A stretch of 64,000 nucleotides of DNA from Glutamicibacter sp. B1 (GTDB lineage Bacteria > Actinomycetota > Actinomycetes > Actinomycetales > Micrococcaceae), in contig NZ_CP125942.1 of NCBI RefSeq assembly GCF_039602135.1, forward strand, positions 620,001 through 684,000, in the 5' to 3' direction. The notes under the pieces were generated by a model. It saw only the letters and a program-made list of their open reading frames with translations. It made no database searches and had not been told where the DNA came from. Positions 17,955 through 64,000 of this stretch are shown here, piece by piece. Numbering within the stretch: the first letter of the stretch is position 1; each line of letters begins with the position of its first letter. The position numbers were made by a program, and so were the translations under genes.

Positions 17955-18098
17955 GCGGAAACACCGAAAGAACCCGGTCCAATAACCTGTGACCTAGTTT
18001 TGTTGTGGCTGGGTCATACCTGAGTATGATGCACTGTCCAAGCAAGTCAAGCCTGTTGGTTGATGCCCCTCTGGCTAGGAAATTTATATTCTTTTGAT

Positions 18099-18848
18099 AT
18101 GACTTCTGAAACACTGCCAAAAACTGACTTTGCGGTCGCCGCGCGTGGGCTGACCAAAACCTACGGACACGACACCACCCGAGTCGAAGCCCTTCGAGGA
18201 GTCGACGTTTCTTTCGCCCGTTCTCGCTTCACCGCCATCATGGGTCCCTCCGGATCCGGCAAATCAACCCTGATGCACTGCCTTGCTGGATTGGACTCAG
18301 CAGACGGCGGAGAAATCATCATCGGTGGCAAGAACCTGCTCTCGCTCAGCGACGATCAGCTCACCGAAATGCGACGCGAACAAATCGGTTTCGTGTTCCA
18401 GTCATTCAACTTGGTGCCCACCATCAACGCACGAGAGAACATCTTGTTGCCACTGTCCCTGGCCGGCAAAAAACATGACCGAGAATGGTTCAACACCGTC
18501 ATCAATGCCTTAGGACTGCGTGATCGCCTCACCCACAAGCCACATGAACTCTCCGGCGGCCAGCAACAGCGTGTAGCCGTGGCCCGTGCACTGCTCACCC
18601 GCCCTGAAGTTGTTTTTGGTGACGAGCCAACGGGTAACCTAGATTCGCGAACCGGCGCCGAGGTGTTGTCCTTGATGCGTACCTCGACCCGCGAAATGGG
18701 TCAGACCATCATCATGGTCACCCATGATCCGGTGGCAGCATCCTACGCTGACACTGTCCTGCTCATGAAGGATGGTTCCATCGTTGGCACCATCGAGGAG
18801 CCCACCGTGGCTACCGTGTCCGAGGCACTTGCCTCATTGGCGGAGTAA
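18099..18848 (+). CDS. ABC transporter ATP-binding protein (MacB/LolD type)
   Basis: About 249 residues. Walker A is GPSGSGKST, the Q-loop [11 protein letters not shown], the signature [15 protein letters not shown], Walker [13 protein letters not shown] and the switch His VTHDP, all of the MacB/LolD subfamily. I chose the ATG at 18099. A TATTCT hexamer ends 6 bases before it, suggesting a leaderless start; the nearest AGGA is 18 bases away. The permease follows after 3 bases. Such pairs drive mechanotransmission or lipid/peptide export and often antibiotic resistance; the substrate is unknown. Confidence 0.9.
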
Positions 18849-18851
18849 TCG

Positions 18852-21347
18852 ATGTTGCACGTAGCTCTTTCAAATATCAAAACCTATGCGCGACGCTATA
18901 TCGCCGTCGTGCTGGCCGTGGCCATCGGTACCGCATTCCTTGCGGCCACCCTAGCCGTGAACTCATCAACTCAGGCAACCTTGAAGAATTCCTTGGGGGA
19001 TTCTTACAAGCACGCTGACTTGGTGGCCTACTGGAACCCGGACCCGAGCGCAGATGAGGGCCAGACCGTAGACCTGACTGCTAAAGACATCACCGGTGTC
19101 CGAGAACTGCCCGGAGTATCCACCGCCTATGGGCTGGGATACGCCTACGGTCAGCTGCATACCGCTGATAACGGCTACACCGTACAGCTTCAGCCAGTGG
19201 ACCCAAAGCAGGGGTTGGGTGGCATGGAACTGCTCGAAGGCCGTGCTCCACTATCCAATAACGAGATGATTATCGACGCCTCACATGCGCAGGATATGGG
19301 CATCTCCATCGGTGATGTTGTGGCCTTGAGCGATGACCAGGGCAAGAGCCAAAACATGACCATCGTCGGTATTCAGCGTTCCTCGACTAACCCGCAGACT
19401 TCTGCCTACGCCTTGGGCGGCATGAGCGAAAAAGCTTGGAGCCATTTCGCCGGTGACGGTGCCATGTTCAGTGACATCGTGATCAACAGTGAAGGCTCAA
19501 CCGACGCTGTCGCACAGGAACTCAAAGACTACTTTGCACAGCAGAAGATGAGTGACATGGCTGTGGTCACCGCGGATCAAAAGGTCATTGACGAAGTCGC
19601 ACAAATGACCGATGGCACGGACCAGCTGAGCGTCATCCTGATCATCTTCGCCTTGATTGCACTGGTCGTCACGGGCCTCGTTGTGGTCAACACCTTCTCC
19701 GTGGTGATTGCCCAGCGTACCCGCGAATTGGCATTGCTCCGTACCCTTGGAGCCAAGCGCAAACAGATCCGCAGCTCGGTACTGCTCGAAGCATTGGTCA
19801 TCGGCATTGTCGCTTCGGTGATTGGCGTCCTGCTAGCCATCGCCTTGATGAGCGGACTCATCCAGCTATTGCACGCCCTGGTGCCGGCCATGTCCTATGC
19901 CACCTTGGCGCTGACTCCTGTGGGTCTCATCGTTCCGATCGCTGTCGGTATCTTGATGACGGTCATTGCCGCTAGCCTGCCTGCCCGCCGAGCCATGAAA
20001 CTGGCACCGTTGGCAGCGCTGCGTCCCTTTGACTCAGCCAGCATGAAGAACCGTGCAGGCATCGTGCGCATCGTCATTGGTGCCCTGCTCGCCCTGATCG
20101 GTGCAGCCCTGTTGATCTACGGTGCAATCCAGGGCGATCTGATCATCGCCTTCCTCGGAGGTTTGGTGTCATTCCCTGGTATCTTGATGCTCGCCTCACT
20201 GTTCGTACCGAGCAGTGTCGCAGGAATTGGCAAGCTGGTTGCCGGTAACTCGACTTCCCGTCGTTTGGCAGCACTGAACGCAGTACGTAATCCAGGGCGC
20301 ACCACCGCTACGGCAACCGCATTGCTCATCGGCGTGACCTTGGTATCGATGATTATGGTTGGTGGGCAGACCGCTAAAGCCAGCCTGAATAATTCGGTGG
20401 CAGCGGAATATCCCGTGGACATGATGGTGTCGTTCTACGACGGGACGACCAGTAAGGCTAAGGCTGATGAACTGGCCAAGAAGATCGACTCCGTGGATGG
20501 AGTCAGCGCGACGTCGACGTTCACCAGTTCCTATGCCGAAGTGAACCTGACTGAAGGCGACCCGGTGTCCTTGCAACTGCTTGCGGTTGATCCACAAGAA
20601 TATTCCAAGACGGTTCTGGACCAGAGCGTTGTGCCAGAAAATGGCGAACTCGTCTTGTCGCAGTGGAATACCGACCTGAAATCTGTAGAGATCGGCGGTA
20701 AAACGCTGAAGATCAAGAAGTCGGGTGCGTTGCTCTCAGGAAACCCGGTGACTAGCCAAACGTTCAAGACCTTGGACATTAAGGATCCAGAGTCGTACCC
20801 AGGCATTATCGTCAAGGTAGATTCCGGTGTCGCTGGCTCGCAGATCAATGAGCTAGTCACTGAAATTTCAGACATCACCGGTGTGGATTCTTCGATGATT
20901 GACGGTGGTGTGGTGATGAAGTCAATGTTCACTCAGATCATTGACGTGCTGCTGACCATTGTTTCGGCGCTGCTTGCAGTGGCTGTGCTGATCGCCTTGA
21001 TTGGTGTCGCTAACACGCTCAGCCTCTCGGTGCTTGAACGCACCCGGGAGAATTCACTGCTGCGGGCGCTGGGCCTGAAGAAGAAGCAGCTACGCAGCAT
21101 GCTGGCTACCGAAGCGGTACTGATCGGTGGCGTAGCAGCATTGCTGGGCATGATCCTCGGCGTGATTTACGGTTTGTTGGGTGCGCAGTCGGCGTTGTCA
21201 TCTATGGGAACGATGACCTACTCGATCCCTTGGTGGCAGTTGGCAGCGGTTCTTGCCATCAGCGTGATCGCAGCCCTGCTGGCATCGATTACGCCAGGGC
21301 GTCGGGCAGCGAAGCTTTCACCCGTTGAAGGCTTGGCCACCGAGTAA
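18852..21347 (+). CDS. ABC transporter permease, FtsX/MacB-like, duplicated core
   Basis: 831 residues with two FtsX-like membrane units. An N-terminal anchor helix precedes a large extracytoplasmic domain (about 45-250), then three helices with the coupling motif RTRELALLRTLGAKRKQIRSSV. A central helix pair and second extracytoplasmic domain (about 510-690) follow, then three more helices with RTRENSLLRALGLKKKQLRSM. This layout suits a fused homodimer-like permease working with the ATPase immediately upstream. Transport of a specific compound cannot be deduced. A strong terminator follows. Confidence 0.9.
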   Translation: MLHVALSNIKTYARRYIAVVLAVAIGTAFLAATLAVNSSTQATLKNSLGDSYKHADLVAYWNPDPSADEGQTVDLTAKDITGVRELPGVSTAYGLGYAYGQLHTADNGYTVQLQPVDPKQGLGGMELLEGRAPLSNNEMIIDASHAQDMGISIGDVVALSDDQGKSQNMTIVGIQRSSTNPQTSAYALGGMSEKAWSHFAGDGAMFSDIVINSEGSTDAVAQELKDYFAQQKMSDMAVVTADQKVIDEVAQMTDGTDQLSVILIIFALIALVVTGLVVVNTFSVVIAQRTRELALLRTLGAKRKQIRSSVLLEALVIGIVASVIGVLLAIALMSGLIQLLHALVPAMSYATLALTPVGLIVPIAVGILMTVIAASLPARRAMKLAPLAALRPFDSASMKNRAGIVRIVIGALLALIGAALLIYGAIQGDLIIAFLGGLVSFPGILMLASLFVPSSVAGIGKLVAGNSTSRRLAALNAVRNPGRTTATATALLIGVTLVSMIMVGGQTAKASLNNSVAAEYPVDMMVSFYDGTTSKAKADELAKKIDSVDGVSATSTFTSSYAEVNLTEGDPVSLQLLAVDPQEYSKTVLDQSVVPENGELVLSQWNTDLKSVEIGGKTLKIKKSGALLSGNPVTSQTFKTLDIKDPESYPGIIVKVDSGVAGSQINELVTEISDITGVDSSMIDGGVVMKSMFTQIIDVLLTIVSALLAVAVLIALIGVANTLSLSVLERTRENSLLRALGLKKKQLRSMLATEAVLIGGVAALLGMILGVIYGLLGAQSALSSMGTMTYSIPWWQLAAVLAISVIAALLASITPGRRAAKLSPVEGLATE

Positions 21348-21377: not shown

Positions 21378-21424
21378 AAGGTCGGGTTCGGAAATCAGTC
21401 TCTGATTTCCGAACCCGACCTTTT
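21378..21424. terminator. strong bidirectional terminator
   Basis: Perfect arms of about 21 bases (AAGGTCGGGTTCGGAAATCA on the left) flank a 3-base loop, ending in TTTTC. It lies between the convergent ABC permease and JetC genes and can serve both. Confidence 0.9.
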
Positions 21425-21439: not shown

Positions 21440-24400
21440 CTAGTTACGTAGCGTGATCGTGGTGGCCATTGCCGGTGAACGTCCGGTGGTCACGAAGCCC
21501 GAGATATTAGATCCAGGGTGTTTGATGATGTCGGTAATCGACCCAAGATGTCGGCTCAGATCAATCTTGTCCTCGGGGGCAGCAAGCACCAGGTGGAAAC
21601 CGAATTCTTGCAAGGCACGGATGCCGGCAGCAGCATATTCAGAGTTTGCCTGAATGAACGCTTCATCGATCATCACGGTGCCAAAGGAGGTGAACCCTGC
21701 CGATGCGAAGCCCAACTGGTACGCCAAAGCAGCACCCATGATGAAGGAAGTGAAACGTTGACCCTCACCACCGGAGAGGGTGCCTGGCTCCAAGCCAGTT
21801 TCGATTTCGCCATTGGTCTTATGCTCGTTACAGCTAATGATCACGTGTTGGCGAACATCTAATACGGTGGAACGCCACGCATTAAGTGCCGGATCGCTCA
21901 ATGCCGTCACGAGAGCTTCCAATGCCTGATACGACGTCGCCAAGGTCGTTTCATCCTTGGTGGTGTAAGCCTCCTGCAAAGCATCTTTCAGTTCCTTGCG
22001 GAAGTTTCCAGCCTCCACAGGAATAGCATTCTGCACTTCCAAACGCAGAATGGATCCATGCTCAAACGTCACCTCAGCCAGAATCTGGTTCAGAGGTTTG
22101 ATGCGTTCAGAGATCATCCGGCGTTCTTCATCAAGCAGCTGCAACAGGTCACTGAAGCGCTCGTAGGAGCGATTCGCGAAGTATTCGCGGAACTGCGCTT
22201 CGTGGTGTGGCAAACCGTCAGCAACAATCTGATCGTGCAGCTGGGTGTAGTGTTCAGCAGCCTCGGCAGAGGTACCGTGAGTTTGGGCGTGCGAGGTGCC
22301 AAAGTCGCGGGCAAAGCGGCGGAAAGTTTCACTGAGCGTGCTACCAATTTCTTGGCGCTGGCTGTTCAGCGAATTCATCTGGCTACCGAGCTGCAGTTTG
22401 ACCTCGGCGAACGCCTCACTGATGTTTTCACTCGAGGGGCAGTTCCCGGAAATGACTTGATCGAGCACCGGTCCCAGTAACTGATGCTGGCGTAGCGAGA
22501 GTGGGATCGATTGCTCCCAATCAACACCTGGAGCTTGCGCAGTGGACAAAACTTGCTCGGCTCGCTGGACCTGCAACTGTAGGTCTTGAATACGGGAGCG
22601 GACCAGTGCCAGGTCCCCGACGAGCTTTTCTGCTTCTGCCTTAGCTGCTTCAATTTGCTGACGTACGCGCGAGGAATCGCCCGAGAGCGAGAGGGCGTCA
22701 CCGAGTTTCTGTTCGCCACGACGCAGAGCTTCCAACGCCGGTGAAGAATCTAGCTGGGTGAAGCTACGTTCATCGGCAATGATGGCCTTCAGCAACTGTG
22801 ATTTGGCGACGACCTTGTTCTTGGCAGCGCTGCGCTCATCGGCAGAGGCTTGGGCCTTCGTTATTTTCTCTTCAAGGCGGGCAGCCTTGGACTCAAGCTC
22901 AGCGATCTTTGATTCGTTGGTGAATCCGAGCAAGTACTCTGAGGCGGGAAGCCCACGAGTGTCTCGTTCGAAGGTTCCGTTACCGGTCTTCATCGTGCCA
23001 GCTGGAGTGATGGCCTTGGGATGCACATGCATCGCGGCATCGGTGTCGACGCAGGCCAGTGGATAGTCTGCGGTGATCTTTGCTTTGAGCCAAGTACCGG
23101 CCTCGCCGGGAGCGAAGTCGAGTTTGGTGACTAGGTCAGCTGGGCCTGCTTCAGCATCCTTGGGTTGCTGGGAGATATCGGTCCAACGCACCCGTCCCAG
23201 ACCATCAAGCTGGTCGATAGCGTGGGTGACCTGAGAGATGAGTTCACCGGGGACCAATAGGGTGCGGGCCAAAGAATGCAAGGCCTTCTCGGCGGCCAAT
23301 CGCCAGGTCGAAGCATCTGCCGAAACGTCCATGAGCTCGCCGGCGAAAGGCAACTGCTCTTCCTGCAACGAGCAGGCAGAGGCGATGGCGCGGCGTGCGG
23401 CGATAGATCGATCGTCAATGTTGCTGGCACGACGCTGGTAGGAACGGATCTGTTCAGCCAGGGTCTCGGCTCGCTTGCGTAGGTTAACCAAGGACGCCAT
23501 GGCCTCATATTCCACGGTTTGAGCGTCCTGGGTGATGGAAGCCAGCTGTTGCAAAGTTCGGGCAGCATTGGCACGCAACTCATCTAGACCCGTGGCAGAG
23601 AATTCAAAGCTCAACCCCGCATCCGAGGCTTGCTGCTGCAAGGCGCGGATGGTGTTTTCTTTTTCGCTCAACGCCTTGCGGGCAACATCTGCTTCGCGTT
23701 CCAACAGCATCAGCGAGGCAGAACCTGCAGAATCGTGGGCAGCCTCTAAGGACTGCAGCTGATCATCGAGCTGTTCTTTGCGTGTACGTAGCTCTTCTTC
23801 TTCAGACTGCAAGGTTGCCAGTTCGCTTTGATGCGATTGCAGATCATTGCGTAGGACTAACTGGCGGACCTGGGCTTCCAGATCCTGCACATCACTTTCG
23901 AGCAGCTGCCGGGTTTCGGTAATCTGCTGGGCCAGCTGACGGTAGGCCTGATCCTGGTGTGGAACTTCGGCCAGCGCATCTCGTTGGGCCCGGGCAGTAT
24001 CCAGCTGACGGTAAATGCCACGCAGGTGGGCGAAGTCTTCAACCGCAGCTGCCGCAGCTTTGAGCGTTGCAGGTTCTTCGAGTACTTCGTGACGGAAGAA
24101 CTGGTTAACGCCCTTGGCTAAGCCCTTACCATTTTGCAGGGTGCGTAACAGAGCGAAAGCCTTATCGCTTTCGACCCCGAGCCGGCGACGAAGACGCTCA
24201 ATGAAGGCCTTGTGGGTGTCGAAGGCTTCACTCGGCGCTAGAGCCTTGGACAGTGAAGAGACAGTGAAACGGCGCGGACCATGATTTTCCAGCTCAGCAA
24301 TCTCGACCTTCCCCTCACACAAGAGATAGTGCTTGGAAACTTGGCCTTCTAGGCCGGCATCGGGCAGATCAAAGACAGCTCCGGCACTTACGGTATTGCC

Positions 24401-24766
24401 CATGCCATCGTCATAGCTGAGGATGATGGCGCTCCACGTAGCCCCAGGGCGTTGATAGACGGTACCCTCGGTGGTCTTGAACTGGCGGCCACGCATATAG
24501 GAGAACGTGGTGCGGCGGTCTTCGCGGGTGGCCGCGTCATTGGCCGATTCGTTCAGTCGCGGGGTAGCAAAAAAGACGTGACCCATGGCATCAAAAAGGG
24601 TTGATTTGCCCACGCCAGGGTGTCCAGTCACCAGTGTTCCAGCTCGGTCCACGGCCAGATCGTGAAGCCCGTGGAAGGTTCCCCAGTTAACAATCTGTAC
24701 TCGGCTGAGGCGATGCTGGCCCGGGTTGACTGCGCCGCCCAGCGGAAGCGTCATTTCAATACTCAT
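21440..24766 (-). CDS. jetC: JetC/MksB-type SMC-like ATPase
   Basis: 1108 residues. Walker A GHPGVGKST is at 48-56, the ABC signature LSGGEGQ at 997-1003 and Walker B VMIDEAF near 1031-1037. Long coiled-coil arms rich in Gln/Glu/Leu lie between (about 280-470 and 640-760) and join at a hinge-like middle. The N-terminal RVQIVNWGTFHGLHDLAV is characteristic of the MksB/JetC branch rather than Smc. In Wadjet/MksBEF systems this ATPase extrudes DNA loops and detects small circular DNA. It is the third gene of jetA-jetB-jetC, starting 3 bases after jetB. No JetD follows. Confidence 0.88.
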   Translation of the reverse strand: MSIEMTLPLGGAVNPGQHRLSRVQIVNWGTFHGLHDLAVDRAGTLVTGHPGVGKSTLFDAMGHVFFATPRLNESANDAATREDRRTTFSYMRGRQFKTTEGTVYQRPGATWSAIILSYDDGMGNTVSAGAVFDLPDAGLEGQVSKHYLLCEGKVEIAELENHGPRRFTVSSLSKALAPSEAFDTHKAFIERLRRRLGVESDKAFALLRTLQNGKGLAKGVNQFFRHEVLEEPATLKAAAAAVEDFAHLRGIYRQLDTARAQRDALAEVPHQDQAYRQLAQQITETRQLLESDVQDLEAQVRQLVLRNDLQSHQSELATLQSEEEELRTRKEQLDDQLQSLEAAHDSAGSASLMLLEREADVARKALSEKENTIRALQQQASDAGLSFEFSATGLDELRANAARTLQQLASITQDAQTVEYEAMASLVNLRKRAETLAEQIRSYQRRASNIDDRSIAARRAIASACSLQEEQLPFAGELMDVSADASTWRLAAEKALHSLARTLLVPGELISQVTHAIDQLDGLGRVRWTDISQQPKDAEAGPADLVTKLDFAPGEAGTWLKAKITADYPLACVDTDAAMHVHPKAITPAGTMKTGNGTFERDTRGLPASEYLLGFTNESKIAELESKAARLEEKITKAQASADERSAAKNKVVAKSQLLKAIIADERSFTQLDSSPALEALRRGEQKLGDALSLSGDSSRVRQQIEAAKAEAEKLVGDLALVRSRIQDLQLQVQRAEQVLSTAQAPGVDWEQSIPLSLRQHQLLGPVLDQVISGNCPSSENISEAFAEVKLQLGSQMNSLNSQRQEIGSTLSETFRRFARDFGTSHAQTHGTSAEAAEHYTQLHDQIVADGLPHHEAQFREYFANRSYERFSDLLQLLDEERRMISERIKPLNQILAEVTFEHGSILRLEVQNAIPVEAGNFRKELKDALQEAYTTKDETTLATSYQALEALVTALSDPALNAWRSTVLDVRQHVIISCNEHKTNGEIETGLEPGTLSGGEGQRFTSFIMGAALAYQLGFASAGFTSFGTVMIDEAFIQANSEYAAAGIRALQEFGFHLVLAAPEDKIDLSRHLGSITDIIKHPGSNISGFVTTGRSPAMATTITLRN

Positions 24767-24769
24767 GGG

Positions 24770-25456
24770 TTACTCCTGCACCAACTCGGGTGTTTGTTCT
24801 GTAAGTTCATCGTTCTCGTCGGCCGACAGGTTAAAAGCCGGTTCGTTGGCATCAATCGCTGCGATGTAGCGCGGGATGTCCGCAATATTTTTCAGTGGTA
24901 GGGCCATCGCGAGTGCTGGGGAGATCCGGAATTCGTTCTCCAGTTCGGTGCTGGTCAGTAGTCGCAGCGACTGCAAACGAGCGATACCGGCCTCACAAGA
25001 TTCAGCAAAACGCTTGTCATCACGGTCGCTGGCCTGACGGTGTTCGGACAAGATTTCATGCATGGCGGAGCGTGAAATGACGGCATCATTCCCACTGCCT
25101 GACTGTTGTTCCAACAACAGTCGCAGGCGTAGAGCCAACAGGGTTTCATCGCGCTTAAGCGGGCGACGAGGAGCAATCGGTGCAGTATGTACTTGTTCAA
25201 TTTGTACTGGGGCGAGCATCGCAATTTTGCGATCCATGTCCAGGGTCAATGCCAAGAAAATCTCTGAGAAGTAATCACTGATGCTCTGTTGCTGATCAAG
25301 CAAGAGTTGCCATGCGGCAGCGTCGAGCGAGCCATCCAGGTACGGTCCGCGCAGAAGACGGACCAGCAACTGGCGCAAAGGCAGGGAGTATTTTCCGGTA
25401 TCACCTTCGAACAACGGTTCTGCGATGGGTGCTGCGTAGGCATCGCTCGTGGTCAT
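24770..25456 (-). CDS. jetB: JetB/MksE-type subunit (DUF4194)
   Basis: 228 residues, acidic, of the DUF4194 family: LRQLLVRLLRGPYLDG (near 27) and a winged-helix KITE-like core through ISDYFSEIFLALTLDMDRKIAML. Its ATG overlaps the jetA stop (4 bases), and jetC begins 3 bases after its stop. In the SMC complex the KITE protein binds the kleisin and helps hold DNA. The C-terminus is Glu/Asp-rich (ENDELTEQTPELVQE). Confidence 0.85.
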   Translation of the reverse strand: MTTSDAYAAPIAEPLFEGDTGKYSLPLRQLLVRLLRGPYLDGSLDAAAWQLLLDQQQSISDYFSEIFLALTLDMDRKIAMLAPVQIEQVHTAPIAPRRPLKRDETLLALRLRLLLEQQSGSGNDAVISRSAMHEILSEHRQASDRDDKRFAESCEAGIARLQSLRLLTSTELENEFRISPALAMALPLKNIADIPRYIAAIDANEPAFNLSADENDELTEQTPELVQE

Positions 25457-26913
25457 AGCGGCTCCTTCGTAAAGCTCAGGGCGGGCAAGATCGCGGTTCT
25501 CATCGAACCATCAAGCTGTTGGAATTCAATGTTGATCAATTCGGCGTCGTTGAGGGACTCACCGTTGGTGCGGCCTATCTCAACGAGGGCACGGATGGTA
25601 TTCAAATGTCGGTGCTCATCATCTAGGGCAGCAAATACTTCATCCATGCCTACTGCCGCGGTTGATGAATTTTTCAGCTGTGTAGTGATTGATTCCCGCA
25701 ATAACGCCATATTGGCTTGTGGCGTTGTTGGGTTACGAACGATGTCCGCTTCACTGTATTCAGGTGCCTGAGCCAGTGGGGGAGGCGCCACATGTTCGGA
25801 AGGATCGTAGATCCCCAAACCGGAAAGGGTCATCAGCTGCGGGGTGTACAAATCCATGGGGGTCAGTCCAGTACGCGGTTTGAGCGCTGATGACTTGCTG
25901 ATGGCCAGTTCGGCTTCGCGGACAGCCTGTCGTAGAAGCTCGGCTTGTTTGTAATCCTCTGACTGAACAAAAGCGTGCAAAGATTCGGAAAGCTTGCCGT
26001 ACGATGCGTGAACTTCAGCAGCCTGACGTCTAAGCTCACGCAACAGATTTGTCAGGATCTGACGCTCGGTGGCATCAAGATCATCAACAAAGTCGCGTTC
26101 GAGAACTTCAGCCAACGCCGAGCGGAAACGCTGCTGGGCCTCGGGAGAATTAAGGAACTCGGTAAACCCGCTAAAGGTTTCACCTTCGGCCGTTGAACGC
26201 AGCTGGCGGTCAGCTTCGAGGACCTGGCCCACAGCCACACCCTTCGCTGTGGAAGCATCAAGGATGCCTTCACGCAGCGAATGCAACATATCCTGAACGC
26301 CATCTCGCATGCGACGGAAATCTGCTGGCAGACTCGAAGCAAGATCCAAGAGCGAACGGGTGGCAGACAAGGCCGTAGTGCGTGAAAGCACCGCAGGGTC
26401 ATCCCCACTACGAAGCTGTTCAATCTGAGCCTGGCGTTGGGCGATCTGAGATTCCAAAGCCCTGATTCGTGCTTCAGGATCAGGGTCAGTTTCGTGTACC
26501 AACGACTCCAAGGATGAAAGCAGCGTGTTCAAGCGCGAAGAGTTCAAGTGGGAGTCATCGGTGGAAAAATCAGCGAGGAAACGCAAGGTGCGCAGAGTCT
26601 GCGCACTTGGCTCATAAACGAAGCGGCCATCGATGAGCGGACGGGCCAGAATGCCTTGTTTCACCCAGCTCTCCGCAAAATCTTGGGCAGAGTAGGACTG
26701 GGGAATCTGTTCGTCGCTTTTACGTGCCTGCTTTAAGAATGAATCTAACGAGGCATGGAATAGTTCCAGCGCGACGCGGGAGCGATCTGCGGTGAACTCG
26801 GCTCGAATGAAGGCAACTGCCCAGGGCTGGGCCGTCAGAAGACGAAATGCTGCCGATCCTTTGAACTGTTGAGCCTGTAGCCACAAACTATTCGCGCGGT
26901 GCGAGGGCTGCAT
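25453..26913 (-). CDS. jetA: JetA/MksF-type kleisin subunit (DUF3375)
   Basis: 486 residues of the DUF3375 family. The helical N-terminus (FLADFSTDDSHLNSSRLNTLLSSLESL) is followed by a coiled coil with repeated Gln/Leu/Arg (RALESQIAQRQAQIEQLRSG) and a C-terminal domain containing YTPQLMTLSGLGIYDPSEH. It is the first gene of the operon, with ribosome site AAGGAAG before the ATG at 26913. It should bridge the JetC ATPase heads. A small palindrome (TTAGG-TCG-CCTAA, 26929-26941) lies just upstream. Confidence 0.85.
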   Translation of the reverse strand: MQPSHRANSLWLQAQQFKGSAAFRLLTAQPWAVAFIRAEFTADRSRVALELFHASLDSFLKQARKSDEQIPQSYSAQDFAESWVKQGILARPLIDGRFVYEPSAQTLRTLRFLADFSTDDSHLNSSRLNTLLSSLESLVHETDPDPEARIRALESQIAQRQAQIEQLRSGDDPAVLSRTTALSATRSLLDLASSLPADFRRMRDGVQDMLHSLREGILDASTAKGVAVGQVLEADRQLRSTAEGETFSGFTEFLNSPEAQQRFRSALAEVLERDFVDDLDATERQILTNLLRELRRQAAEVHASYGKLSESLHAFVQSEDYKQAELLRQAVREAELAISKSSALKPRTGLTPMDLYTPQLMTLSGLGIYDPSEHVAPPPLAQAPEYSEADIVRNPTTPQANMALLRESITTQLKNSSTAAVGMDEVFAALDDEHRHLNTIRALVEIGRTNGESLNDAELINIEFQQLDGSMRTAILPALSFTKEPL

Positions 26914-27137: not shown

Positions 27138-28394
27138 ATGAAGCCCTTGCGATTAGTAGTAGCTGTTGGCCTGGTTATGGCCCTGGCAGCGTGTAGCACT
27201 CAAACTCCAACCGAAAACCCGAGCACCGAGTCTTCCCAAGACGCACAAGCACAGCAGGAGCAAGAACGAGTCGACAGCGTTAAAGCCGAAATTAATAGGC
27301 TTGCTGATGGCTATGACTACGATGCTGCGATAAAACTTGCGAAAGAGGATAGCAACACAGAATTGTCGTCAATGGTTGGCGGACTGGAAGACGAAAAAGA
27401 GCACACAACAGCATGGGCCGAACCGGATAAGATTCCGCACCTGTTTTTCCACTCACTGATCGTGGACACCGATCGTGCCTTCGATAAGGACAGCCGCTCT
27501 GCCGGGTACGAAGACTACATGGTGACCCAGAAGGAATTTGCGGCGATTCTTTCATCGCTCTACGCCAAAGACTATGTGCTGGTTAACCCAGAAGATTTTG
27601 CCGGTCTGAACGATAAGAAGCAGATGGAGTATCGAAAGATCATGCTCCCCAAGGGCAAAAAGCCTCTCGTCTTATCCGTGGATGATCTCAGTTACTACGA
27701 ATATATGGACGGCGACGGTTTCGCCAGCAAACTGGTGCTCGACGACAACGGCAAGGTCCGCAACGAGTATGTTGATGCCGACGGCAAAAAACACATCGGC
27801 GCTTACGACGTGACCACGATGGTTGATGACTTCATCAGCGAGCACCCGGATTTCACTTATCGTGGCGCACGTGGGTTGGTGGCGATGACTGGTTATAACG
27901 GTGAATTTGGCTACCGCACTTCGGAAAGTCAGTACCCGGATGATAGGAACATCAAGCAGGATCAGGAAAAAGCTACAGCGATTGCAACGGCCATGAAAGA
28001 CACCGGTTGGGTCTTTGCCTCGCACTCGTGGGGTCATATCCAAACCGATTCGGTGAGCATGGGGCGCCTGAAGCGTGATACCAAACTTTGGGAAAAAGAG
28101 GTTGAACCGATCGTCGGCGCGACCGATCAATACATATATCCTTTTGGCGCCGACATCGCCCATACCAGCGCTTATTCGGGTCCGCGCTACGAGTACCTGA
28201 AAAGCCAAGGATTTAGATACTTCTACGGTGTGGATGGCACCACTGAAGCCTGGATGCAGCAACGCCCAGAGTATCAACGTCAAATGCGTATCAACGTTGA
28301 CGGACTGCAATTCGCCAAGGAAGAAAAAGGTGACCGCCCAGTCTTAGGCGCGTTCTTCGACGTTGAAAAGGTTATCGATCCGGCCAGAAAATGA
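27138..28394 (+). CDS. polysaccharide deacetylase-like lipoprotein
   Basis: 418 residues. A type II signal peptide ends in the lipobox LAAC with Cys19, so the protein is anchored on the outer face of the membrane. A Glu/Gln-rich linker follows. The NodB-like domain shows LVLSVDDLSYY (acidic metal site), FASHSWGHIQTD (paired His) and YIYPFGADI. These fit carbohydrate-esterase-4 deacetylases acting on cell-wall or exopolysaccharide. It is divergent from the jet operon and convergent with the nuclease-helicase gene. The substrate is unknown. Confidence 0.82.
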   Translation: MKPLRLVVAVGLVMALAACSTQTPTENPSTESSQDAQAQQEQERVDSVKAEINRLADGYDYDAAIKLAKEDSNTELSSMVGGLEDEKEHTTAWAEPDKIPHLFFHSLIVDTDRAFDKDSRSAGYEDYMVTQKEFAAILSSLYAKDYVLVNPEDFAGLNDKKQMEYRKIMLPKGKKPLVLSVDDLSYYEYMDGDGFASKLVLDDNGKVRNEYVDADGKKHIGAYDVTTMVDDFISEHPDFTYRGARGLVAMTGYNGEFGYRTSESQYPDDRNIKQDQEKATAIATAMKDTGWVFASHSWGHIQTDSVSMGRLKRDTKLWEKEVEPIVGATDQYIYPFGADIAHTSAYSGPRYEYLKSQGFRYFYGVDGTTEAWMQQRPEYQRQMRINVDGLQFAKEEKGDRPVLGAFFDVEKVIDPARK

Positions 28395-28415: not shown

Positions 28416-31400
28416 CTATAACGCCATAAACGCGCCCAATTCTGACAGTCCCCGCGGGGAGGACGGCAAATAATCTGTGAGCCGCTCGCTGCGCACGATG
28501 ATGGCCTTCCACTGTCCGCGGGAGATGGCAACGTTGATGCGGTTTCGATTCAAGAGGAACTCGATGCCGCGGGAGGCATCATCGGCGCTGGAGCAGGCCA
28601 TGGTCATCAAAACCACTGGGGCTTCTTGGCCTTGGAATTTGTCGACGGTTCCAACCTTGACCGCGTCCAACCCCTGCGAGGCCAGGACCTCACGAACCAG
28701 ATTGACTTGGGCGTTATAGGCCGCGACGACTAAGATGTCAGTGGCTTCTAACCCGCGAGCTGTCTTACCGGGACCGGGAGTCCACAACATGCCAAGATGT
28801 TCACGGACAAGTTGCGCGATTGCTTCGGCTTCCTCAACCGAACTGACGGTGTTCCCTCGGTGCTCAACGAAGCTCGTGCTCACTCCTGCGGGTGTTCCAT
28901 CAAGGACTCGCTCCCCGGCAGCCGGCGCCGAAAACAGCTGATGGTCATAGCTCAAGGCAGACACCTTGGCGCACAGCTCTGGGTGCATGCGCCATGATGC
29001 CGCCAAAAAATACCCAAGTTGTGAGGGCAGCACGGGTTCTCCGGCTGAAAGCCACCCCAAGGCTGATTCATCAACAGGCTGCGGATGAGAACCCTGGGTA
29101 ACCTGTGGCAACTGTTGCGGATCACCGAGCAACAACAGGTTGCGGGCAGCACGAGATACCGCCAAGGTATTGGCCAAAGAGGAACTGTCCGGCCTCGTCA
29201 ATCACCAACAGGTCCAGGCTCTGCGCAGGGACCTTAGAACCGGTCAGGGTCCAGGCCGTCCCACCAATCAACGCGCCTTCAGCCGAGTTCAGGACGTTTG
29301 TTATGGAATCCTTAGACGTTTCGGTCCAAGGTACTGGATCCTTGTGCTTAACTTCCTTAGCAACTACTGATGGGTCGACGCCGGCTTGGATAGCCTTGCG
29401 CAGTACATTTTCAACCACTGCGTGGGATTGAGCCACGACACCGATTTTCCATCCATCATTGATCAGTTCACGGATCACGTGCGAGGCCACGAAGGTTTTG
29501 CCCGTGCCGGGAGGGCCTTGGACGGCAAGATAGGACTGATCAAGATCCTTCAGGGACTCAACGACCGCTTGGTAGGTCTGCGGTTGGCCGTTGACGACCT
29601 CTGGCTGCGCTGGGGCCGGCAACGTTGTGAATCGTGGTGAGATGCGGCGCAGAATATCGATCCCCGGCTGCTTCGGCAGCACAGGAACCGTAGAACCGAC
29701 CTTTTGGGCGATCTCCAACAACGCGTCATCGATGCTCTTGGTCATCAAAGGCTTATCCGGGGTCAACGCCATGGGCATCGAACCGTAGGGAGGGATTTTG
29801 GCACTGGATTTTTCAGCAACGGTAATCCACCCCTCGCCAAGTTCCACGACAGTCGTGTTAAACGCACCGCCTCGCAGTGATTCGTCCACTTCCATGCCTT
29901 CAGGCAAAGGGGCAGCGAACATGGCAAAGACGGAGGCGCCGGGGGAGAGCAACGAACCTTCGGCCAGAGTACCGTTGAGCCTGGTCACCCTAGTAAAGGT
30001 CCGGGCTCGTTCGGTGGGTTTGTGCCAATCCTCAAGCACTTCGGCACCGTCAACAATGAAAACGCCCCGGACATCGCTCCAATCATCTACTGGTGCCGAG
30101 AGACGATCGAAGTGCTCCCACCAAAACTGTTTCTTCTCACGGCGGTTGTAGCCGGTCGCTGCAGCGACCATGGCAATGGCGCGGTCATCATCACTCAGTG
30201 CCTGACCCTGTGGAAGAATCGCGAGGTAGTCCTGCAAACGCAGCTCTTCGGCGCTGGGCTCATATGCTTCTTTGGTATCTTCGGCCAATGGCATGGCAGG
30301 AAGAGTCTGAGGATGATGTTCCTCTAATGACAGCAGCCAATCACGCAAGCGAAGGGTGGAGAGGCAATCGTATTCGTTGTAATCGGCAATCGAAGCCAAG
30401 ACTTCATTAGCTGTGGCGGTGTCGTGAGCATCCCGGGCCTGCATGTACTGGGCATACGCCACGACAGAGGCGCCGGCATCGGTGACGTCGCCACCTCGAA
30501 GATGTTGCCCCATATATAGGGGTTCAAGTTTTTTGATCGAGTAGGAGCGAGTGGAGACTACTAGTGAATTGCGTACGGTCTCGTATAGATCCACTAGCAA
30601 GTTTTCCCGCAACCAGCTATCAATGATTTCTTCACCGGCAATATGCACCTGAGAGAGCTTGCGCAAAGCGCTCTTTTCATAGGCTGCGTAGTGGTAAATC
30701 TTCATATTGGGGAAGCGCTCACGCCGTTGCTGCACATAAGCGATGAAATCTAAGAACGCTTGGCGCTCCTCTGCCCGGCTGTGCGCCCAGAAAGGCTTGA
30801 ACACTGGTTCTTGAGTGTCATATTCAATAACTCCGAAGAGGTACTCCAGTCCCCATGACCCATCAGTGCTTTCTTGGTATAACGGGTCGCCTTCAAAATC
30901 AAAGAAAATATCGCCTGCATCAGGGGCAGGAAGATGAGAAATCGTTTGACTGGACTTGACCCGGTAACTTACCCCCTGCACTTCTCCGTCTTTACGTCCC
31001 AACCCCAATTGCATTTGGGCTTGGTCGATAAAACGGGCCAGAGAAGTTTCGGGTGCGGCCTTCAACGCAGCTAATTGGTCAATGGTAAAGATCTGGCGTT
31101 TGCGCAGCTTTTCGCGCTGCACCATCGACATTCCTGCGACGAGCAAAACATCTCTGGTTGCTTGAACTTGCTCGGAGCAGTAATCGCAACGGCCACAGAG
31201 TCGAAGCTGATCTGAATCCCAAGCCACTGGCTGTGAAGAATCGCGATGATTCTGAATCATCGTCAAGAATCGTGCGCGCTGAGCCCGGAACACCGGCAGT
31301 ACCTCATCCACCCGATGCACCGAGTGCGTGCCGTCGCCGAGCACGAGAGTAGTTTTACTGGAGACGCTGATACCCTCTGTGATCATCTGATCTGCGTAGG

Positions 31401-31872
31401 CGGCCACCTGCAGCAGGGCGCTCACGCGAGCATGCCGGGCTAGCTTGGTATCCCAGACAGCCCACGAACCATCTGACTGGCGAACGAGGAAGTCAGCAAA
31501 ACCGATGAACGACCCATCGAAGAAAGTGGCCTGGAAAATAACGTCAGCACCACTACGCAAGACGTGCATCGTTTGCTCGTGTGCTTCGCGAAGGCCTTCA
31601 GGCGTCATTGTCGGACGGTCATGAAACTGCTTAACACCGGTGCCCGCAATCGGATCGTAATCGCCATAAGTTTCGATGAGCTGCTCTAAGACATTGTGCT
31701 CATGAACATCCCCTAAGACTGCGGTGCGTTCGAGCATTTCGTCGCGGGTTTTTTCGGTGGCCGGACGGCGGCCAAGTTTGACGTCCAAGAGGAACAGCGA
31801 CTGATAGTTGCAGTCGACAGACACAGCAAGGTCGCTGGCGGAAAAGATGAACTGATCCTCTAAAAAGAACAC
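28416..31872 (-). pseudogene. TM0106-type RecB-like nuclease / superfamily 1 helicase, split by a one-base frameshift
   Basis: Two frames make one protein: 29122-31872 (916 aa from GTG) and 28416-29201 (261 aa). The first has the RecB-like and RNase H-like parts (FFDFEGDPLYQES near 325) and Walker A GPPGTGKT (786-793), then reads LLVIDEAGQF and runs out of frame. The second resumes with SLANTLAVSRAARNLLLLGDPQQLPQ, the helicase motif III region, and carries VDKFQGQEAP and NVAISRGQ (motifs V-VI). Dropping one G at 29181-29182 joins them into about 1151 residues. Either a genuine inactivating mutation, a programmed shift, or a sequencing error. Confidence 0.85.
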
Positions 31873-62442: not shown

Positions 62443-64000
62443 CTAGGACAGTCCCACTGCCTTTCCAGCCTGATCAACATCCATGCGCAGCGCGGCCGGA
62501 ACTTGGGGCAAGCCAGGCATGGTGGTCAGCACACCGGTAATGGCAACGATGAAGCCGGCGCCGGTTTTAGGGATCAATTCACGGATCTGTAGCCGGAAGC
62601 CAGTAGGAGCACCGAGTGACTGAGGATCATCAGAGAAAGAGTACTGAGTTTTGGCGACGCATACCGGAAGATGATCCCACCCGTTGGAGTGAATCTGTTC
62701 CAGCATCCGCAGTGCCTTGGGGGAGTAGTCAACACCTTCACCGCCATAGACATCACGCACCAGAGATAAAAGTTTCTCTTCGATACTTTGCTCAAGGTCG
62801 TAGAGGTGAGTGAAGTTGGTGGGGGAATCCAATGCGCGCAATACTGCGGTAGCCAATTCGCCTGCGCCCGCCCCTCCCTGACCCCAGACATCCGCCGTGG
62901 CGCACTCAATGCCGTTCTCTGCTGCCCAATCGGTGACAATCTTCAGCTCGTTAGCGGTGTCCAAGGTGAACTGGTTAATGCCGATGACCGGTGGGATGCC
63001 AAACTTCTTGATGATCTCCACGTGACGCGCCAGGTTGGGCAGTCCGACCCGCACCGCTTCAAGATTCTCTTCACCCAGATCTTCTAGAGATACCCCACCG
63101 TGCATCTTCAGTGCACGAATCGTGGTCGTGATAACCACAGCGTTCGGAGCGCAGTCGGCAAAGCGTGCCTTGATATCCATAAATTTTTCGGCCCCGAGAT
63201 CCGCACCAAAACCTGCCTCGGTCACCACCACATCTGCTAATGAGCGTGCGGTGTTGGTTGCGATGGCTGAATTGCAGCCGTGGGCAATATTGGCAAAAGG
63301 GCCACCATGGATGAAGGCCGGGGTTCCAGCGATGCTCTGGACGAGGTTAGGTTTGATGGCGCCTTTGAGCAACAGGGTCAAGGCTCCCGCCGCGCCTAAA
63401 TCATCGACCGTCACCGGCTCTTTGGTATACGAGTAGCCGATGGTCATCTTGCCTAGTCGTTTGCGTAGATCCGCTAGGTCCGTGGCAAGACAAAAAACAG
63501 CCATGACTTCTGAGGCTGCGGTGATCTCGAATCCGGTCTCGCGGGGCACACCGTCGGTGGGCCCACCCAATCCGATAACCACCGTGCGCAAGGAGCGATC
63601 ATTCATATCCATGACGCGTTTAAAAGTGATACGCCGTGGATCAATGCCTAGCTTATTTCCGTGGTGCAGATGGTTGTCCACCATCGCCATGAGTAGATTG
63701 TTGGCGCTGGTAATGGCGTGAAAATCCCCGGTGAAATGCAGATTGATGTCATCCATGGGCAACACTTGAGATTGGCCACCGCCGGTGGCCCCGCCCTTCA
63801 TGCCAAAACTGGGGCCAACGGAGGGCTCGCGTAAAGCGATCATGGTTTTTGTGCCACTGGCGGCCAGTGCATCAGCGAGGCCCACCACCATGGTCGTCTT
63901 GCCTTCACCGGCGGGAGTGGGCGACATTCCGCTGACCAAAACCACTCGTCCACGCTTAGTGTTCTTGGCTGACAATAGTGCCGGATCCACCTTGGCTTTG
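62443..64000 (-). CDS. fhs: formate-tetrahydrofolate ligase (5' end beyond window)
   Basis: The frame runs to the right edge and reads [17 protein letters not shown] at its visible start, so the N-terminus (about 35-45 residues) lies outside. The nucleotide-binding motif [20 protein letters not shown] follows, then the family stretches [35 protein letters not shown] and [22 protein letters not shown], and a C-terminus ending GKAVGLS. It makes 10-formyl-THF from formate and ATP, which also feeds the PurN and PurH reactions encoded elsewhere in this window. Confidence 0.95.

Follow-up and report, generated by a model that had tools for sequence, protein, structure and literature searches.

The locus and its three subunits

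The stretch of DNA analysed here, 64,000 nucleotides of Glutamicibacter sp. B1 (contig NZ_CP125942.1, positions 620,001 to 684,000; hereafter the window), carries an operon for JetA, JetB and JetC, three of the four subunits of a Wadjet type I system. The fourth, the nuclease JetD, is found neither in the operon nor in the genome. The genes are as follows.

25453..26913, minus strand: jetA, 486-amino-acid DUF3375 kleisin subunit, MksF-like (PF11855 347 bits, PADLOC JetA1 768 bits)
24770..25456, minus strand: jetB, 228-amino-acid DUF4194 KITE subunit, MksE/MukE-like (PF13835 121 bits, PADLOC JetB1 287 bits)
21440..24766, minus strand: jetC, 1108-amino-acid SMC-like ATPase (PF13555/PF13558, PADLOC JetC1 1092 bits)

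The first two genes overlap by 4 bp and a gap of 3 bp separates jetB from jetC. An earlier reading, made from the letters of the window alone (the sequence-only reading), had described a tightly coupled jetA-jetB-jetC operon and, in jetC, Walker A, signature and Walker B motifs that are all intact. Its coordinates and strand are exact, its families agree with the profile matches, and the three motifs are located at residues 48 (GHPGVGKS), 997 (LSGGEGQ) and 1031 (VMIDEA).

JetA1, JetB1 and JetC1 are the top PADLOC models for the three proteins. JetC gives family matches to AAA_29 (66 bits) and SbcC_Walker_B (54 bits) and aligns over almost its full length with the solved JetC chain 8dk2_C (E value 1.2e-69). 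JetB also matches PF21980, MksE, with 34 bits against a cut-off of 27. A sequence search with JetB against solved structures found no relative; its predicted fold (mean predicted local distance difference test score, pLDDT, of 76) resembles the JetB chain 8dk1_E (E value 5.7e-9) and MukE. The sequence of JetA matches solved JetA chains with E values of about 1e-13, and its predicted model (mean pLDDT 74, predicted template modelling score 0.33) is similar to JetA 8as8_E in Foldseek (E value 3.8e-13), the template modelling (TM) score of 0.33 being low.

Absence of JetD

The genome is complete, a single contig of 3,603,828 bp, and throughout it there is no match to JetD_C (PF09983) or JetD_N (PF11795), a Corynebacterium glutamicum control being positive. 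A profile of 18 local JetD proteins also finds nothing in this genome at E ≤ 10; the same profile detects JetD in five of 18 Glutamicibacter genomes, four intact and one broken, a patchy distribution. That no JetD-like frame lies anywhere in the window had been recognised from the sequence, and the search of the whole genome then proposed, now run, extends the absence to the complete chromosome. Of the two explanations offered at the time, a nuclease located elsewhere finds no support here in the domain and local-profile searches.

For the family we used a sample of 197 Micrococcaceae genomes, in which there are 136 full-length matches to DUF3375, two short fragments having been set aside. In 44 of them, scoring 409-493 bits, JetD lies 6.0-6.5 kb on, start to start, on the same strand. 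Within 12 kb of a further 90 (257-364 bits, one per genome, 12 genera) no JetD was found, at least three of these loci (in genomes G052, G076 and G087) being too near a contig end to reveal one that followed, a count that covers minus-strand matches. The remaining two fit neither class: one is in G139 and the other in G108, where the downstream side is at a contig end. Bit score was considered as a perfect divider of the classes and rejected, since genome G596, outside the 197-genome sample, has a 303-bit JetA with JetD adjacent; a tree assigns it to the sister group described below rather than to the jetD-less clade.

A second profile, of 30 local JetDs, recovers its 30 training sequences and untrained JetDs, for example those at loci L105 and L111-L115. 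At E ≤ 10 it finds nothing in the 41 fetched loci, all of which extend 1.5 kb or more past jetC. It is equally without a match in 80 named loci, the best 80 of 202 relatives in a collection of named genomes; 71 of these have at least 1.4 kb after jetC and nine end less than 1.3 kb after it. The locus counts are not independent because the named loci overlap with the sampled genomes. In genus g11 a same-strand frame of roughly 400 amino acids after jetC was examined as a divergent fourth gene and discarded; it is a BenE transporter in L093 and L097 and has no family match in L072.

Might the complex borrow JetD in trans from a co-resident full Wadjet? Some JetD_C match is present in 28 of the 90 operon genomes, 25 of which have a full JetD-type locus. 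The other 62, that of the window included, contain no JetD_C match, a few of the assemblies being incomplete, and this both refutes borrowing as a general explanation and counts further against a nuclease elsewhere. We give the idea very little credence.

Distribution and ancestry

All 18 Glutamicibacter genomes examined have exactly one jetA that belongs by score (340-364 bits) to the jetD-less class, and four of them carry in addition a second, JetD-type jetA. The closest named jetA, among the best 80 of 202, is that of Arthrobacter sp. NIO-1057 with 99% identity. A full Wadjet is present in 25 of the 90 genomes that have the jetD-less operon and in 19 of the 107 that do not (Fisher p 0.12). 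The operon does not exclude the full system and so seems not to replace it. In a sample of 396 genomes from the phylum DUF3375 occurs in 17, and comparison of coordinates places the jetD-less state also in families f4 and f6.

On contig 5 of G596 a JetD-bearing Wadjet of the sister group (L232) and a jetD-less operon (L233) lie divergently, about 12.5 kb apart. At L130, in the Glutamicibacter genome G112 (C2, about 62790-63189), a broken JetD remnant occurs, and a 19-kb stretch fetched with it showed no jetABC; we take this as a sign that full Wadjet systems are gained and lost while the jetD-less operon persists.

Two JetC trees were calculated. In the first, of 86 rows selected from the fetched loci, 48 rows, the jetD-less operons of Micrococcaceae, group as a single clade with a Shimodaira-Hasegawa-like approximate likelihood ratio test (SH-aLRT) support of 100. 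The second, of 60 rows, used a careful method with proteobacterial JetD-bearing Wadjets as outgroup; there the 17 rows of the jetD-less clade (support 100/100) branch from within JetD-bearing Wadjet type I, and supported branches require at least three changes of JetD state. We caution that its root is not perfectly clean: a Sphaerotilus row chosen for the outgroup was placed inside, and there are long branches that meet. Both states occur in the sister group, which has JetD-bearing L102, L229 and L232 (Glutamicibacter G596) alongside several JetD-less rows. The trees cover part of the 90 loci; four loci of genus g11 are counted in the 90, and the three of them in the trees fall in this sister group. 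A second jetD-less JetABC clade on a long stem belongs to family f6 of the same class (L103, L104, L106, L107, L108 and L110), with six rows in the 86-row tree and five in the 60-row tree, support being 100.

The simplest reading of these sequence relationships is that JetD was lost in the stem of the Micrococcaceae clade and independently elsewhere. The comparison with related genomes suggested earlier as a check for loss of jetD therefore reveals a state that is old and lineage-wide rather than a local event. The sequence-only reading had also named, as something that would count against it, a type whose members never have JetD and act purely as a chromosome condensin; the first half of this describes the Micrococcaceae clade, no examined member of which has an adjacent JetD.

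Purifying selection and sequence markers

Median ratios of non-synonymous to synonymous substitution rates (dN/dS, NG86) are low: jetA gives 0.04 from 18 pairs, and jetB and jetC give 0.085 and 0.052, from 17 pairs each after removal of a saturated one. Synonymous divergence is close to saturation in many pairs, the window's own among them; for pairs with dS below 0.7 the ratio stays below 0.15 (jetA, jetC) or 0.34 (jetB). As judged from these ratios, all three genes are under purifying selection. In addition no listed DUF3375 match has a stop inside jetA.

These data bear on the notion that the operon is a decaying, functionless remnant of a Wadjet. Loss of a subunit is itself the kind of event such decay would produce, and both the broken JetD of the congener G112 and a split jetC in one of the 80 named loci (L211) could be cited for it. 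Purifying selection across genera contradicts it, as do three intact genes with low dN/dS, occurrence in 18 of 18 genomes of the genus and the uninterrupted jetA frames, and we judge decay to be extremely improbable.

We looked for markers of JetD loss in the proteins. The ATPase signature of JetC is SGGQ in 25 of 25 JetD-bearing actinobacterial sequences besides L102 and SGGE in 128 of 129 JetD-less ones, the single exception apparently being a pattern artefact. As a marker SGGE was rejected: solved Wadjets (PA14 and Escherichia coli chains) and the JetD-bearing L102 and L232 have it also. Positions kept with JetD and lost without it were listed for each subunit; they are not tied to JetD docking and were not used.

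A probable motor without the cutter

What would a Wadjet do without its nuclease? In the available text of a review (PMC10586767) JetABC dimers bind and translocate DNA with ATP and sense circles, and JetD cuts. By extension from this known biochemistry JetABC of the window would load on DNA, dimerise through the kleisin and extrude loops with ATP, and a motor lacking JetD that reached the end of a circle would bring about no cleavage. Less certainly, the complex may have kept a role in folding or segregating the chromosome, working next to Smc as an accessory condensin, rather than in defence. Roles of MksBEF in chromosome organisation and segregation are described in the accessible part of PMC7485682.

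We favour, as the probable interpretation of the sequence comparisons, a Wadjet-derived, JetD-independent chromosomal SMC-kleisin-KITE motor whose JetD was lost at the base of one Micrococcaceae lineage and which selection has maintained since. Preserved for so long without the cutting subunit across a whole group of soil bacteria, the complex probably no longer destroys DNA but folds it or keeps it in place. With JetABC intact and JetD not found in the genome, we read the data best by the second of the original two explanations, in which the complex acts but does not cut.

Several observations weigh against this interpretation. The nearest studied actinobacterial relative known to us is MksBEFG of C. 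glutamicum. That complex, which bears the nuclease, acts on plasmids and has no part in chromosome organisation, according to the portion of PMC7083940 available. The operon is not strictly chromosomal since it is present on two Arthrobacter megaplasmids of 754 kb and 1.35 Mb. The split jetC of L211 is one case of an operon not kept intact. At the JetB N-terminus a motif LF.GDTG (LFEGDTG at 25394-25414 of the window) is retained in 79 of the 80 named jetD-less loci by a broad pattern and in 75 by a strict one; it occurs as well in five of the six JetD-less loci of the sister group and in 11 of 26 loci with JetD, and family f6 has it in none of six. Such strong retention suggests that a partner may still dock there. 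The JetB N-terminus bears a JetD-contacting IFDR motif in the account given by the available text of PMC10586767, and IFDR is not alignable with LF.GDTG here. Proximity to the replication origin was considered as a sign of a condensin and set aside: the distance from dnaA is at most 0.195 of the chromosome for all 31 loci without JetD and for all 11 that have it (some chromosome lengths are rounded), so the property does not discriminate. Finally, in a third of the genomes a RecB-like gene is linked to the operon, which raises the possibility of a nuclease partner and is taken up below.

An alternative is that JetABC recognises small circular DNA and compacts or mis-segregates it without cutting. 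Descent from a plasmid-restricting Wadjet, as given by the JetC tree, is in keeping with such restraint. The genomes gave no sign that plasmids are the target, and the idea fits poorly both with the co-occurrence of a full Wadjet in 25 of the 90 genomes and with the operon copies on the two megaplasmids. We regard it as unlikely.

A RecB-like gene upstream

Upstream of jetA lie the following two features, the first of which is a syntenic neighbour.

27138..28394, plus strand: 418-amino-acid protein, divergent from jetA, with no Pfam, NCBIfam or PADLOC match
28416..31872, minus strand: RecB-like (TM0106-family) nuclease / superfamily 1 (SF1) helicase gene in two overlapping frames (TIGR03491 177 bits, cut-off 97; RNase_H_2, AAA_11, AAA_12)

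The sequence-only reading had not seen the partial linkage of the second gene to the operon, which is an addition to it. Among the 90 jetD-less genomes, 30 from five genera have the RecB-like gene on the strand of jetA and no more than 12 kb upstream of it, and in six more it is 42-76 kb from the operon. Near the 45 high-scoring loci, 44 of them with adjacent JetD, there is none within 15 kb and the nearest is 60 kb away. The two genes nearly abut in four named Arthrobacter loci (L170, L172, L176 and L180), where the RecB-like gene ends 33-75 bp before the jetA match, and on the 754-kb Arthrobacter plasmid, where the distance is 151 bp. A RecB-like gene is present in 67 of 90 operon genomes and in 34 of 107 without the operon (odds ratio 6.3, uncorrected for phylogeny).

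These observations are what would be expected if JetABC recruited the RecB-like nuclease/helicase as a substitute effector and so still destroyed or processed DNA. Constant linkage or co-occurrence, as a JetABC plus RecB-like system would show, is not what is found. In 23 of the 90 genomes, all 11 of genus g32 among them, there is no TIGR03491 match at E ≤ 1e-10, and in other genera the gene is either on a different contig or at a distance between 42 kb and megabases. In the window and in 11 fetched relatives of the genus the opposite-strand gene separates it from jetA, and in this genome the RecB-like gene is split. Absent from 23 operon genomes and present in 34 that lack the operon, the gene is not a required subunit; an optional partner is the most it could be, and an inherited gene neighbourhood suffices to account for most of the linkage pattern. 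Recruitment of this effector is thus quite unlikely. We hold the same doubt about a version confined to part of the clade, in which JetD would have been replaced by the RecB-like/SF1 helicase to give an SMC-driven DNA-processing or defence system (recB-like/helicase-jetA-jetB-jetC), the motor in the remaining clade being nuclease-free.

In 13 named loci of the Glutamicibacter group (L136-L148) the RecB-like gene is a single frame of 1158-1163 amino acids. The canonical smc of this genome, which lies outside the window (G000:C1:1574430-1577976), is likewise read in two frames, of 966 and 250 amino acids, and is one open frame of 1194-1198 amino acids in all five congeners examined. Together the split smc and the split RecB-like gene suggest indel errors in this assembly; the two-frame smc reflects either assembly indels or a truly broken gene. 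If the break is real then the JetABC motor would matter more in this organism.

Flanking genes and other observations

Downstream of the operon are the following.

18060..21347, plus strand: ATP-binding cassette (ABC) transporter ATPase and permease genes, convergent with jetC and named from the sequence-only reading and their translations; a syntenic neighbour outside the system
21379..21421, no strand: perfect hairpin of 20 pairs in the gap where jetC and the ABC permease gene converge, with a T tail clear on the plus-strand (permease) side

The permease gene itself occupies 18852-21347. A homologue of its 831-amino-acid protein is found downstream on the opposite strand in 14 of the 41 fetched loci, including the window and all 11 fetched Glutamicibacter relatives, and in these 11 the divergent gene next to jetA is also kept. 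The strong terminator ascribed to jetC on sequence grounds is only partly right: the 20-pair hairpin is there and, the clear T tail being on the permease side, it serves mainly the permease gene. A consensus scan found no sigma-70-like promoter, a result that says little. In 12 of the 80 named loci (L169, L170, L172-L176, L178, L180, L181, L209 and L213) the contig stops 44-2804 bp after jetC, suggesting that many of these Arthrobacter-type genomes have a repeat on that side of the operon.

Two plasmid loci, L228 on a 22-kb plasmid of Tsukamurella and L231 on a 220-kb plasmid of Mycolicibacterium fortuitum, are jetABC-like; the annotated jetA is short or split in them, and JetD is missing from the annotation. 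Since the Tsukamurella match starts where its circular record starts, the jetA there may simply be cut by the record boundary. Locus L175 comes from a record titled Sporosarcina beigongshangi, a Bacillota name, and its JetA is 50% identical to that of the window, a value in line with the Arthrobacter loci listed alongside it; it seems likely that the record is mislabelled or the assembly mixed. Source names, where given among 120 listed of 362 JetC relatives, are mostly 'ATP-binding protein' or 'chromosome segregation protein SMC'.

Comparison with known systems

A nuclease-free Mks complex is known in outline; the lineage-wide absence of JetD is sharper than had been stated from the sequence. 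We found no paper on a JetD-less actinobacterial lineage, most subscription journals lying outside the search. Wadjet is reported in 42% of actinobacterial genomes (PMC10482375), and JetD is not mentioned in its text. PADLOC JetA1, JetB1 and JetC1 score the genes described here at 768, 287 and 1092 bits, so surveys in which JetABC genes are taken as Wadjet may overestimate how much anti-plasmid defence Actinobacteria have. The lineage is also a natural test case for the conversion, or reversion, of an immune SMC motor to housekeeping duty, since relatives with and without the cutter exist, sometimes in the same cell (25 of 90 genomes). Comparing such relatives may tell what JetABC does to the chromosome when unable to cut.

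The operon resembles Wadjet type I (JetABCD, MksBEFG or EptABCD) in its three subunits, their order, sequence and fold, and is nested inside that type in the JetC tree. It differs in having no JetD/MksG in the operon or the genome, and in being present genus-wide at one copy per genome, whereas JetD-bearing Wadjet is patchy. In C. glutamicum the kleisin MksF joins the nuclease MksG to MksBEF, as set out in the available text of PMC10123090. A related genus provides a further likeness: the extract of PMC11719660 available has, in Table 6 and with no comment in that extract, a PADLOC match to JetA, JetB and JetC without JetD in Paenarthrobacter lasiusi, which unlike the present operon sits beside a full type I system. 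Borrelia burgdorferi MksB promotes long-range chromosomal contacts (PMC10406323), and MksG is not mentioned in that paper's text; that organism, unlike the operon here, has no MksE or MksF.

In Pseudomonas aeruginosa an mksFEBG operon, nuclease included, is recorded for strain PA14 in the same part of PMC10123090, and MksBEF of this species has been proposed to derive by JetD loss, in the portion of the review cited above (PMC10586767). P. aeruginosa MksBEF belongs to another phylum and lies outside our trees. Like the operon of the window it is an SMC-kleisin-KITE operon without the MksG nuclease. The Pseudomonas complex occurs in cells that also have Smc; by analogy, the Glutamicibacter complex is perhaps an accessory condensin of that kind, with a role on the chromosome.

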